Shown here: piece after piece, positions 38,669-47,134 of the stretch
Layout: each line of letters begins with the position of its first letter
Position numbering within the stretch: position 1 is the stretch's first letter
Assembly: GCF_000379765.1 (NCBI RefSeq)
Contig: NZ_KB903498.1
Location: forward strand, 128,778-192,777
Source of the DNA: Flexithrix dorotheae DSM 6795
GTDB lineage: Bacteria > Bacteroidota > Bacteroidia > Cytophagales > Flammeovirgaceae
DNA: 64,000 nt
Reading direction: 5' to 3'
Notes under the pieces: model-generated
What the model was told of the DNA's origin: nothing
The model's input: only the letters and a program-made list of their open reading frames with translations
Database searches by the model: none
Program-made: the position numbers and the translations under genes

Positions 38669-39760
38669 CTAAGATTTGGTTAAGGTAAACAATTCAATGG
38701 ACTTTCTTTTTCCTTTTAATTCGTTTATTCCTAAGGATTTTACCGCAAAAGCTTTATCCAATTCCAGTTCTTGTAGTAAATCTTTGGAAATCAAATTATC
38801 TACCTGGAAATCGTTACACAAACTCTGAATCCGTGAAGTCGTATTTAGTACGTCTCCGGTAAAGATTATTTCTTTTTTAATTGCTCCGATTTCCCCAGTA
38901 GTTACACGGCCAATATGGAATCCGGCTTTAAATGCAGGCAACAAACCAAACTTTTGAAAATATTTTTCCTCCTGTTTTTTCAGGTCAGCCTTCATATTAT
39001 AAAAACATTGTACACAGTTATTGTTTTTTATCCCTTTTCCCAATTTCCAGGATACAATGATTTCATCCCCCACATATTGATAAATTTCACCCGAACAATT
39101 AATTATGGCCTCTGACAAATCCGCATAATAGGTTTTTAGCAATTCAAAATATTGAATATGTCCGATTTTTTCTGCAATACTGGTGGAAGATTTCATGTCC
39201 AAAAACATAAATATTCTTTTTTCCTCAATCGGTTGATGATATTTTCCAGTGAAAAAATTCAATAAAATGCCATGTCCGATATTTTCACTTATTTCCGCAT
39301 AAAATAAGGAAATTACCAAAGCTGAAGCCAATTGGATATCAGTACTGATATGAGTATAACTCGTTAAATAAGCTAACAATTTCTCCCATACCCTGATATC
39401 TAACAAATTTGATTGAAGCTCCATACTTACTGCAATGGGAAAGGTAATGATGGTGATCAGGAATAGTAATAACGAATAAAATAAACTCTTGTAGATGATC
39501 TTTTTCAGAAAGCTTTTGTTTTCAAATATCCTGTTGATAAAAAGTAACTCAATAGTTCCTACAAGTAATCCAACAATCGTGATGGCCAGGCTGGAAAATA
39601 CAAAAATTTCGAAATTCATTTCAATTACCGAAGTATTCTGCAAATCCATGTCTTGAAGTGCACCCCTTTCTACAACTAAGAAAACTAATCCCGATACTAA
39701 CCAAATCAATCCAAAAGGAAGGATGCGGGAGGCGTTTCTTTTAAATTTAGGTGATAACAT
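38669..39760 (-). CDS. Membrane-anchored adenylate/guanylate cyclase
   Basis: Class III nucleotide cyclase of 363 residues. Four hydrophobic helices (about 14-30, 51-72, 89-112, 142-158) anchor it in the inner membrane; the catalytic domain fills 180-363. The two metal-binding Asp residues are visible: Asp188 in FMFLDMKSSTSIAEKIG and Asp232 in YQYVGDEIIVSW. The later part keeps AGFHIGRVTTGEIGAIKKEI and FTGDVLNTTSRIQSLC, with the transition-state Asn/Arg region. Substrate (ATP or GTP) cannot be judged. It is divergent, with 89 bases between, from a TolB-TPR-AraC regulator. In some rhizobial proteins these domains form one polypeptide, so the two products may work together. Confidence 0.9.
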   Translation of the reverse strand: MLSPKFKRNASRILPFGLIWLVSGLVFLVVERGALQDMDLQNTSVIEMNFEIFVFSSLAITIVGLLVGTIELLFINRIFENKSFLKKIIYKSLFYSLLLFLITIITFPIAVSMELQSNLLDIRVWEKLLAYLTSYTHISTDIQLASALVISLFYAEISENIGHGILLNFFTGKYHQPIEEKRIFMFLDMKSSTSIAEKIGHIQYFELLKTYYADLSEAIINCSGEIYQYVGDEIIVSWKLGKGIKNNNCVQCFYNMKADLKKQEEKYFQKFGLLPAFKAGFHIGRVTTGEIGAIKKEIIFTGDVLNTTSRIQSLCNDFQVDNLISKDLLQELELDKAFAVKSLGINELKGKRKSIELFTLTKS

Positions 39761-39849
39761 CCTTAAGAAAAACTTGTGTGTTAATTTAATAAATTAAAGA
39801 TTTGTGTTTTTTAACTTAAATCTTTCGATTTTTAAAGATAAAACATTTG

Positions 39850-41640
39850 ATGGAACAAAAGTCCATTGCCGTACTCCCTTTTGAAAATATAAGTTCTGAC
39901 CCGGAAAATGAATATTTCTCTGATGGTATGACAGAAGAACTTATCAATGCATTGGGGAAAATAGGAGGCTTAAAAGTAACTGCACGGACCTCTTCTTTTG
40001 CCTTTAAGCATAAAAAAGAGGATGTTCGCATTATTGGCAATGAATTGGGTGTTTCCACAGTGCTGGAAGGCAGTATTCGGAAAGCCGGGAATAGAGTCAG
40101 AATCACCACACAACTTATCCGGACAGATAATGGCTTTCATATCTGGTCTGAAAATTTTGATCGAGAGTTGAATGATATTTTTGCCTTGCAAGATGAAATC
40201 AGTCTCTTAATTGCCGATAAAATCAGGGAGAATTTTGGGCATATGGATATCGATGAACATCTGATAGAACCTCCTACTCAAAACATTGAAGCATACACTT
40301 TGTTTTTGAAAGCCAGATACCATCATTTAAAATGGAATACTGAAGGTATAACCACTGCTATTCAAATCTATGGAGATTGTATCAGTAAAGAACCAAAATT
40401 TTCCCTTCCATATTTTGGATTAGGATACTGTTATTCTATGTCAGGTTCCTGGGGTGAAGATAAAAGTGAATTGCTGGAGGTAGCTGAAAATTATCTGAAT
40501 GAAGGTTTATTGCTGGATCAGCAATCGTATCATGGTTTTTTTGGTTTGGCCACATTATATTTTTGGGGTAAATGGGATTTTGAAAAAGGACTGTTTTATT
40601 TTAAAAAAGCCTTGCAACTAAATCCCTCCTACACAGAAGCTGAAGAAGGTCTTGCTGAATTATATACCGCCATAGGAGATTTTAACAAAGGATTGGTGCA
40701 TACTCAAAATATACTTAAAATCAATCCCTTATCCCCCAATCACTATTTTACAAAAGGTAATATATTGTTCCTCTCCAATAACTTTCAAGGAGCCTTGGAA
40801 TGTATGGAATCAGCCCTGCGAATTGATCAGAATTTTTCTCATGCCATTGAATTAAAGCAATTGTGTTATATTAAATTAAAGGAGTATGAGAAATTAAATG
40901 ATTTTTTATTAAAAAATCATCATCTGGCTGAACATCCCAATGCCTGCAGAGCCCTTTATCAACTGATCCATCAGGATGAAAATATTGATTTTGACCTTGC
41001 TTTAATTGGGCCTGTTTTTAATGAGAAAAAGGGTGTTACCTTGTTTCCCTGGCCTCTGTTTTTGCATGTGTATTTGGGAAATATAGAATTGGCATTGGAT
41101 CTTTTGGAAGAAGCAATAAGAAAAAAGAGAGGTCAATACATTAATTTTATGAATTCCCCTCTTCTGACACCATTACACGGTCACGAACGGTTTAAATCAC
41201 TAATTAAAGAGACCTTCAAGCCTGATATTCAACCAAAAGAAAAAGTGCAGATTCCGGCAGTGCAAAAAGAAGCAAACAGCTTGTTATCAGAAAGTGAAAC
41301 AAGGCAATTTTCAGCACTATTACAGGAAATAATGGATAATGAAAAACCCTACTATAATTCCACTTTATCCTTGAGAAATTTGGCTGAACTAATAAATATT
41401 CATCCGAATAAATTATCCTGGCTACTCAATAAACAATTGGGGAAAAGTTTTAATGAATATATTAATTCCTATAGAATTGAAAGTTTTAAAACAATGGCCT
41501 TATCACCTGAAAACAACCACATGACCTTATTGGGATTGGCCTATGAATGTGGATTTAATTCAAAATCAGTTTTTAACGATTCTTTTAAAAAATCTACAGG
41601 GAAAACCCCTAAATTATGGTTAAAACAAAACCGAAAATAA
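39850..41640 (+). CDS. TolB-like/TPR regulator with C-terminal AraC-type HTH
   Basis: Regulator of 596 residues from the ATG at 39850 (a TTG just before it is less likely). The N-terminal FlgO/TolB-like domain (about 4-135) starts KSIAVLPFENISSDPENEYF and continues SDGMTEELINAL. Tetratricopeptide repeats fill about 170-340 (DFEKGLFYFKKALQLNPSYT, ALECMESALRIDQNFSHAIE). An AraC-family HTH ends the protein (about 485-596: SLRNLAELINIHPNKLSWLL, and MTLLGLAYECGFNSKSVFND). No signal or membrane segment is present, so it is cytosolic. The first two domains are those usually fused to class III cyclases; here the cyclase is the divergent neighbour. Confidence 0.88.
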   Translation: MEQKSIAVLPFENISSDPENEYFSDGMTEELINALGKIGGLKVTARTSSFAFKHKKEDVRIIGNELGVSTVLEGSIRKAGNRVRITTQLIRTDNGFHIWSENFDRELNDIFALQDEISLLIADKIRENFGHMDIDEHLIEPPTQNIEAYTLFLKARYHHLKWNTEGITTAIQIYGDCISKEPKFSLPYFGLGYCYSMSGSWGEDKSELLEVAENYLNEGLLLDQQSYHGFFGLATLYFWGKWDFEKGLFYFKKALQLNPSYTEAEEGLAELYTAIGDFNKGLVHTQNILKINPLSPNHYFTKGNILFLSNNFQGALECMESALRIDQNFSHAIELKQLCYIKLKEYEKLNDFLLKNHHLAEHPNACRALYQLIHQDENIDFDLALIGPVFNEKKGVTLFPWPLFLHVYLGNIELALDLLEEAIRKKRGQYINFMNSPLLTPLHGHERFKSLIKETFKPDIQPKEKVQIPAVQKEANSLLSESETRQFSALLQEIMDNEKPYYNSTLSLRNLAELINIHPNKLSWLLNKQLGKSFNEYINSYRIESFKTMALSPENNHMTLLGLAYECGFNSKSVFNDSFKKSTGKTPKLWLKQNRK

Positions 41641-45054: not shown

Positions 45055-45501
45055 TCATGTTTTGATTAAAATAACTCCTGAAATGATGATAACTACCCCT
45101 AAAACCTTCTTCACTGTAATTGGCTCCAGTGGCATATTAAACCAGCCAAAATGTCCTGCGATTGCCGCAAAAATGAGCTGTCCGGACAAACCTAAAGTAA
45201 CTGCAGTAGAAATTCCTAATTGGGGAATGATGTAATAAAATAAAGATACCGCCAGGAAACTTAATAACCCTCCTGTGAAATACATATACAATGGTATCTC
45301 CTTTAGCTGGTGCATACTTGGAAACTCTTTTACCGTGAGCAGTAAGGCAATAAATGTAAAGCTTGCACTCATGGTCAGTGCCGTGGTGGTGGCCAACAGG
45401 GAGTTGTCCAGTAAAATACCCAGTCGGGCATTTACTCCCCCCTGAATAACTACCATAATTCCTACCGAAAAGGAAAGGAGAAGCAATATAGGATGATTCA
45501 T
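45055..45501 (-). CDS. DMT-superfamily membrane protein (DUF606/YdcZ-like)
   Basis: Inner-membrane protein of 148 residues with about five helices. The beginning HPILLLLSFSVGIMVVIQGG then VNARLG, and the end GQLIFAAIAGHFGWFNMPLE then KKVLGVVIIISGVILI, match the half-size DUF606 branch of the drug/metabolite transporters, which act as dimers. The gene follows the cyclase-family gene by seven bases, so the two are co-transcribed. The substrate may be the product of that hydrolase, but this is only inferred. Confidence 0.85.
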   Translation of the reverse strand: MNHPILLLLSFSVGIMVVIQGGVNARLGILLDNSLLATTTALTMSASFTFIALLLTVKEFPSMHQLKEIPLYMYFTGGLLSFLAVSLFYYIIPQLGISTAVTLGLSGQLIFAAIAGHFGWFNMPLEPITVKKVLGVVIIISGVILIKT

Positions 45502-46549: not shown

Positions 46550-47134
46550 TTAAGAAAGGCTATGGCCAATATTTTTTCGAATAGTACTTAAGTGCTCGGG
46601 AGTGATTCCCAAATATGAAGCGATCATATACTGTGGGATCTGCTGTTCCATTGTTCTATACCGCTTCCTAAAATCAAAGTAACGTTCTTCAGCCGATAAA
46701 CTCATCGCATGAATTGTGCGCTCCTGAAGTGCTACATATCCATGCTGCGTTTTTATTCTGAAAAACCGATCCATCATGTGAATTTCGTTAAATAACACAT
46801 CTAGACGATCTCTGTGAATTTGTAGCACAACACTATCGGTTATCGCCTGCATAAAATAAGTAGCAGGTTTCCCGGTGAGGTAGGCATATAAATCATTCAT
46901 CCACCATCCCTGAATACCAAATTGAAGAATATGTTCTTTCCCCGATTCATCAATATTAAAGAGCTTCAGGCAGCCTTTCACAATAAACCGCATATGATTG
47001 GAATATTCTCCTTTTTGAAGCAAAAACTGTTTTTTCCCGAGCGTAACTGGTTTGAAGGCATCCTTTATTAAATTCAACTCGCTTTCTTTTAGAGGAACCT
47101 GTTCTTTAATGTGTTGGATTAATATTTCATGCAT
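46550..47134 (-). CDS. Crp/Fnr-family transcriptional regulator
   Basis: Regulator of 194 residues with a cyclic-nucleotide-binding-like beta-barrel (about 20-120: LGKKQFLLQKGEYSNHMRFI then VKGCLKLFNIDESGKEHILQ) and a short C-terminal helix-turn-helix (QQIPQYMIASYLGITPEHLS then TIRKNI). The phosphate-binding Arg-Ser/Thr pair of true cAMP sensors is not evident, as in many Bacteroidota members. It is likely the local regulator of the hydrolase/transporter pair downstream. Confidence 0.9.
   Translation of the reverse strand: MHEILIQHIKEQVPLKESELNLIKDAFKPVTLGKKQFLLQKGEYSNHMRFIVKGCLKLFNIDESGKEHILQFGIQGWWMNDLYAYLTGKPATYFMQAITDSVVLQIHRDRLDVLFNEIHMMDRFFRIKTQHGYVALQERTIHAMSLSAEERYFDFRKRYRTMEQQIPQYMIASYLGITPEHLSTIRKNIGHSLS

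Follow-up and report, generated by a model that had tools for sequence, protein, structure and literature searches.

A CadC-type sensor with an AraC domain, predicted in Flexithrix dorotheae, recurs beside and fused to class III nucleotide cyclases

The window analysed here, a stretch of 64,000 nucleotides from Flexithrix dorotheae DSM 6795, holds the gene of a membrane class III nucleotide cyclase (CYC) and, transcribed away from it, the gene of a soluble protein with TolB-like, TPR and AraC parts (TOL). Does this arrangement reflect a signalling partnership, and which of the two proteins would then act on the other? The first-pass annotation of this DNA had described a membrane class III cyclase on the minus strand, a cytosolic TolB-TPR-AraC protein on the plus strand and 89 bases between them. 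This description was borne out in full by the Guanylate_cyc match and membrane helices of the first open reading frame (ORF), by the TPR and HTH_18 matches, TolB-like fold and lack of a membrane helix of the second, and by the length of the gap. The features on which the text draws are as follows, with positions counted along the window.

38669-39760, minus strand: CYC, membrane-anchored class III nucleotide cyclase, 363 aa (ORF, Pfam Guanylate_cyc and catalytic residues)
38681-39211, minus strand: cyclase catalytic domain of CYC, residues 184-360 (Pfam; residue conservation in 41 relatives)
39296-39724, minus strand: membrane region of CYC, roughly residues 13-155 (from the hydropathy of the protein and its relatives)
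39761-39849, no strand: intergenic region between the divergent starts of CYC and TOL, 89 bases
39850-41640, plus strand: TOL, soluble TolB-like, TPR and AraC protein, 596 aa (ORF, Pfam and model)
39850-40239, plus strand: alpha/beta domain of TOL with a TolB-like fold, roughly residues 1-130 (matches to FlgT and TolB)
40285-41214, plus strand: TPR helices of TOL, about residues 146-455 (Pfam and model; matched to CadC jointly with the TolB-like part)
41290-41637, plus strand: AraC-type DNA-binding domain of TOL, residues 481-596 (HTH_18 and model helices)
45055-45501, minus strand: gene of a YdcZ-type inner-membrane exporter (Pfam DMT_YdcZ, E 2.4e-29)

Residues 184-360 of CYC matched Pfam Guanylate_cyc with an E value of 1.9e-12 and 47.6 bits, as compared to a curated cut-off of 21.9, and the protein carries the cyclase homology domain that marks class III nucleotide cyclases. 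Hydropathy put the membrane helices of CYC in the range of residues 13 to 111, and its relatives have a fourth helix near 135-155. The catalytic residues D188, D232, N306 and R310 are all kept; D188 is conserved in 40 of the 41 relatives (the remaining one has a gap) and the other three in 41/41. We take D188 and D232 to be the metal-binding Asp pair, N306 and R310 to be the transition-state residues, and a further site, occupied by Gln, to be that of the base-selecting Lys of adenylyl cyclases. This site is Gln in all 41 relatives, so that the product of CYC is not predictable from its residues, and it is equally Gln in 24 of 24 fused cyclases of another subfamily. Judged from its sequence, CYC is a membrane class III nucleotide cyclase with intact catalytic residues that should make a cyclic nucleotide. 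The genome contains nine places that match PF00211, five of which are of the CYC kind, and among these five genes the window copy alone adjoins a TolB-TPR-AraC gene. When ORFs were read by eye, export systems were seen alongside three of the four other paralogues (L049, L050 and L051, on contigs C2, C24 and C18), namely ABC systems with FtsX-like permeases, RND-type efflux and ABC-2 permeases.

TOL starts either at an ATG (39850) or at a TTG (39847), which gives a length of 596-597 aa. Pfam recognized TPR repeats and a full-length HTH_18/AraC domain at residues 511-592 (E 1.7e-13), hydropathy revealed no membrane helix or hydrophobic segment, and Pfam had neither a model matching the N-terminal part nor a cyclic-nucleotide-binding domain anywhere in the protein. 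An AlphaFold2 model built with 49 relatives had a mean pLDDT of 92.6 and a pTM of 0.86, and residues 1-145 folded alone had a mean pLDDT of 86. The latter model matched FlgT (Z 16.0), the N-terminal domain of TolB (Z 11.4-13.1) and PelC (Z up to 12.7), and in view of the FlgT and TolB matches the label "TolB-like" holds at the level of the fold. Residues 1-324 of the full model aligned with the periplasmic sensor domain of CadC (Z 18.7, 296 of 318 residues, 3.7 angstrom). Many TPR proteins score like CadC against this model, and the four CadC entries were the sole ones among the matches listed that aligned from TOL residue 1 and through both subdomains. Based on the model, TOL reads as a cytosolic CadC-type sensor joined to an AraC DNA-binding domain. 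The same genome encodes two proteins in which the AraC domain stands ahead of the TolB-TPR part (L052:6306-8270, contig C14, and L012:922-2868, C57); in L052 a membrane helix lies between the two, a CadC-like layout with a different DNA-binding domain.

The annotation had presented the locus as cyclase and TolB-TPR domains split into two genes, with reference to rhizobial proteins in which cyclase, TolB-like and TPR domains form a single chain. That such rhizobial proteins exist was confirmed by plasmid records, whereas the notion of a split did not hold. CYC and TOL lie on opposite strands and do not form one ORF, but a paralogue in the same genome does (L010:940-3279, contig C14): its 779 aa comprise cyclase, TolB-like, TPR and AraC parts, and the last three are 38% identical to TOL. 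At the E value limit of 1e-15, this protein was matched by 556 of 72,556 plasmid records, mostly from Rhizobium (232) and Sinorhizobium (156), and most of the rhizobial matches listed cover approximately residues 7-638 of 779, corresponding to cyclase-TolB-TPR without the AraC end. Among 111 non-redundant TOL-type genes there were 22 fusions and 89 stand-alone genes, with one of the latter (L200) being a fusion read as two ORFs. Relatives of the fusion occur in at least G012, G013, G140 and G240 (G, C and L numbers denote genomes, contigs and loci), often just upstream of a PIG3-like quinone oxidoreductase gene. We rejected the idea that the pair is a fused gene cut in two, because the fused cyclase belongs to another subfamily than CYC. 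When 104 of the 111 TOL-type proteins were placed on a tree, the fusion label required 7 changes, at least 4 of which are forced by supported branches; as read from this tree, the cyclase is a part that has been gained or lost several times in TOL-type proteins.

Is the pair then peculiar to this genome? We rejected this possibility as well, since a CYC-type gene lies within 5 kb of a stand-alone TOL in seven genomes, i.e., that of the window and six more (G261, G391, G321, G240, G346 and G779), and the outcome that the first-pass annotation had named as its refutation, absence of the pair from other genomes, thus did not occur. Its proposed census of the divergent pair or the fusion had a mixed outcome: the pair was found in these 7 genomes and the fusion at 22 of 111 loci, but the divergent order was seen in the window genome only, and the others are tandem, interrupted or convergent. 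TOL is followed by CYC on the same strand in G261 (47 bases between) and G391 (51 bases between), and in G779 a small outer-membrane-like gene lies between TOL and CYC in tandem, on a contig of only 4.8 kb. The order is CYC, one gene, TOL in G240 and G321, and the two genes converge in G346 (17 bases between). Immediate adjacency was thus found in four genomes (window, G261, G391 and G346). A FIST-domain sensor gene (L124:6215-7348) is divergent from the paired TOL of G261.

To put a number on this recurrence, both genes were searched with fixed limits. The pair, at up to 5 kb, was present in 5 of the 18 genomes holding both genes versus 0.11 expected (p 1e-7), and, with the window genome excluded, in 4 of 17 versus 0.10 (p 4e-6), under a chance model of independent genomes and uniform gene placement, so that the excess is compatible with the alternative that both genes merely share neighbourhoods. 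This count scores G346 as unpaired, its paired cyclase being above the E limit, and omits G240 (outside the 148 genomes drawn), G388 (TOL split by a stop and below the limit, with the cyclase 100 kb off), and G012 and G614 (fusion only). In the G388 gene (L309:4944-6817), which is of the TOL type, a stop or frame change has cut the reading frame in two. A class-level set of 395 genomes drawn, which was searched after the pattern had appeared in other sets, contained the pair in 1 of 3 genomes with both genes. Within the window's own family (18 genomes), six genomes hold both genes and the window genome alone holds the pair; in G013, of the same family, the two are 238 kb apart. Of the 89 stand-alone TOLs, 82 lacked a CYC-type gene in the flanks examined (up to 5 kb per side), the best 80 of 570 confirmed TOL loci included no stand-alone gene with a CYC-type cyclase within up to 5 kb, and the relatives most like the window TOL among those first fetched (L120-L123) had no adjoining cyclase. 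Given the recurrence above chance, TOL and CYC are probably functionally linked. An alignment scan with CYC also found a single locus on a viral contig (L330), whose gene order is that of the CYC locus of G008 (L105) and which is probably host DNA.

Co-inheritance of the seven pairs was not detected, as the TOL and CYC distances were uncorrelated (Mantel r 0.34, p 0.23), and the six paired TOLs in the TOL tree occupy six separate places. These scattered TOLs and uncorrelated distances indicate that pairs formed, or broke and re-formed, repeatedly. A single clade of 25 rows, with a support of 100/100, contained six of the seven paired CYCs, as compared to one among the 48 others (Fisher p 0.006), an enrichment biased towards a positive outcome by L125 and L280, which joined the CYC tree solely via their TOL. 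The closest relatives of the window TOL (L120-L123, 58-59% identity) come from families other than its own, whose TOLs are 37-52% identical to it; these identities are compatible with either transfer or old paralogy.

The genes around TOL were analysed in the set of 111 loci. Families that recur in these neighbourhoods include beta-lactamase-like proteins (43), quinone oxidoreductases (38) and NmrA-like proteins (27). A gene of a recurring family lies downstream on the same strand at less than 600 bases in 52 of the 89 stand-alone TOLs, and a PIG3-like quinone oxidoreductase gene follows directly in 12 of these 89 and in 13 of the 22 fusions; same-strand neighbours of this kind, together with the AraC domain, make TOL look like a local regulator. 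The YdcZ exporter gene was present in 4 of 6 paired neighbourhoods versus 1 of 105 others (p 1.2e-5), which suggests a shuffled cassette of TOL, CYC and exporter with the YdcZ gene as a possible member. About 5 kb from TOL, the window also contains a Crp/Fnr-like gene with a cNMP_binding domain (46550-47134), a possible candidate for the receptor of the CYC product; members of its cluster occur in 8 of the 111 neighbourhoods. At L290:9261-11987 (G365), a gene three genes from a CYC relative encodes a protein of 908 aa with TolB-like, TPR and HD parts, the N-terminus of which is TIR-like by eye and without a Pfam match.

From the computed results, namely the domains, the intact catalytic residues, the predicted CadC-type fold and the recurrence above chance, we infer how the pair may work. 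TOL would be a one-component regulator whose CadC-type TolB-TPR half responds to a partner protein or a small molecule in the cytosol, while its AraC half would act on nearby promoters, i.e., in the region common with CYC and probably at exporter or redox genes. CYC would answer a cue from the membrane or envelope by making a cyclic nucleotide. If TOL and CYC are functionally coupled, this would account for why they keep ending up adjacent. The likeliest coupling in the window would be that TOL sets the expression of CYC; the two genes diverge from a gap of 89 bases, as is usual for a regulator and its target, and for this reason control of CYC by TOL was held likeliest. Regulation of CYC and other neighbours by TOL ranked first among four readings, with a probability of roughly 0.4. 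Also in its favour are the complete AraC domain, the CadC-type fold, the same-strand neighbours of TOL-type genes, the excess of pairs, the clade that holds six paired CYCs and the association with YdcZ. Several observations speak against it. No operator was found: inverted repeats in 39761-39849 were no longer than expected by chance (189 of 1000 shuffles), and a search for gapped 8-letter words shared by 98 TOL upstream regions returned nothing above shuffled controls. Moreover, orientation varies among the pairs, the great majority of stand-alone TOLs (82/89) have no CYC nearby, one of six family genomes with both genes has the pair, and TOL and CYC distances are uncorrelated. Unpaired CYC relatives, too, are found beside exporters, so CYC has other contexts.

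The reverse direction ranked second and is possible, if on the unlikely side: CYC would act first, and either its cyclic nucleotide or a contact between its cytosolic domain and the TolB-TPR half would switch TOL on or off, making the pair a two-protein counterpart of the fusion. The joining of cyclase, TolB-TPR and AraC in one chain at 22 of 111 loci, the window genome included, fits this idea, as do the tandem TOL-CYC genes of G261, G391 and G779. Excerpts of PMC5936718 offer a precedent, in that CadC, whose sensor fold is common with TOL, receives the lysine signal via its membrane partner LysP; yet the same excerpts have CadC, the closest fold relative, binding cadaverine, and Pfam found no cyclic-nucleotide-binding domain in TOL. 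Furthermore, the fused cyclase is of the other subfamily and most stand-alone TOLs lack an adjoining cyclase. The fusions show that a cyclase and a TOL-type regulator can form one machine without indicating the direction of the signal, and regulation of CYC by TOL fits the data at least as well as control of TOL by CYC. A narrower version, in which a cyclic nucleotide is read by the CadC-type TolB-TPR fold of TOL in a two-protein switch, appears improbable; this nucleotide would possibly not be cAMP, because the base-selecting Lys is Gln in every CYC relative. Were it true, TOL would act in transcription as a cyclic-nucleotide receptor that has none of the known cyclic-nucleotide-binding domains, and other Bacteroidota would have the same circuit in one chain. 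We consider it rather doubtful, and ranked it third, that the two proteins are not directly coupled and that their genes both frequent the same shuffled neighbourhoods of exporters, redox enzymes and regulators, coming together there at a higher rate than elsewhere in the genome. These neighbourhoods do have many families in common, YdcZ accompanies the pair, CYC relatives also lie beside ABC, RND and other genes, and there is no co-inheritance, but immediate adjacency in four genomes and the cyclase-TOL fusions exceed a loose sharing of neighbourhoods. If TOL and CYC are functionally coupled, this would account for why they keep ending up adjacent.

A very unlikely reading, ranked last, is a Pycsar-type anti-phage system with CYC as its pyrimidine cyclase and TOL as the effector acting on transcription. 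PADLOC PycC models match CYC weakly (best E 1.4e-10, 39 bits), but the general cyclase model of Pfam outscores them with its 47.6 bits, and the best solved-structure relatives of the CYC profile are photoactivated adenylyl cyclases, with no PycC entry recognized among the matches listed. According to excerpts of PMC11224242, the specificity residues of PycC differ by clade. Within the family, 10 genomes from two genera have a distant CYC relative adjoining an HD-PycTM gene (L090:1393-3800 in G004, with matching places in G003, G005-G011 and G016), an arrangement that resembles a fixed unit of the chromosome more than an island; these PycTM-linked cyclases are, however, apart from the TOL-linked ones on the tree, and TOL itself has no PADLOC match. 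The sole PycTM place in the F. dorotheae genome is an HD-PycTM gene on contig C47 (L314:664-1941), with no cyclase gene in the flanks examined, and the window is on C69. Membership of CYC in a Pycsar system was rejected, since a Pycsar cyclase would adjoin its effector gene and Pfam revealed neither PycTM nor PycTIR among the CYC and TOL neighbours scanned.

Several known systems resemble the pair in part. The rhizobial cyclase-TolB-TPR proteins, annotated as adenylate/guanylate cyclase domain-containing proteins, likewise combine a class III cyclase with TolB-like and TPR parts, but they are one chain with no AraC end, whereas the window has its cyclase, which is from another subfamily, as a membrane protein of its own. 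E. coli CadC, a ToxR-like one-component regulator, has in common with TOL a TolB-like and helical sensor fold, which TOL shows in the predicted model, together with a DNA-binding domain; CadC is integrated in the membrane, has its sensor in the periplasm and carries a winged helix-turn-helix at the N-terminus, while TOL has none of these three traits, being soluble with a C-terminal AraC domain. The NCBIfam model of HilA/EilA regulators (NF009037) covers the TolB-TPR part of TOL (residues 24-259), but TOL scores 37.1 bits versus a cut-off of 589, which places it outside this family, and the DNA-binding domain differs. Pycsar, as described in excerpts of PMC11224242, resembles the locus in that a class III-like cyclase (PycC) adjoins a dedicated partner gene (PycTM or PycTIR); the window partner is a transcription factor, and neither PycTM nor PycTIR was found in the window. 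A class III cyclase is also tied to a helix-turn-helix regulator in mycobacterial cyclase-LuxR proteins such as Rv0386, as outlined in excerpts of PMC3466318. Those proteins have a LuxR instead of an AraC domain and are one chain. Rv0386 also has an ATPase part, and it is not known to have a CadC-type sensor. A search of the open-access literature found no paper on the CYC/TOL pair or on a cyclase-TolB-TPR-AraC fusion, which is weak evidence of absence. The rhizobial fusions, the cyclase-LuxR proteins and CadC are known; a CadC-type sensor with an AraC domain that is coupled to a cyclase in two ways did not turn up in this search.

For most of the nine places in the F. dorotheae genome that have a class III cyclase, there is no obvious receptor. 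With one cyclase subfamily as a recurrent neighbour and another as a fusion partner, the TOL-type regulator is a candidate signal partner. On this evidence, the CadC-type sensor would be a mobile module that serves not just as a periplasmic pH sensor but also, combined with AraC, cyclase or HD parts, in the cytosol.
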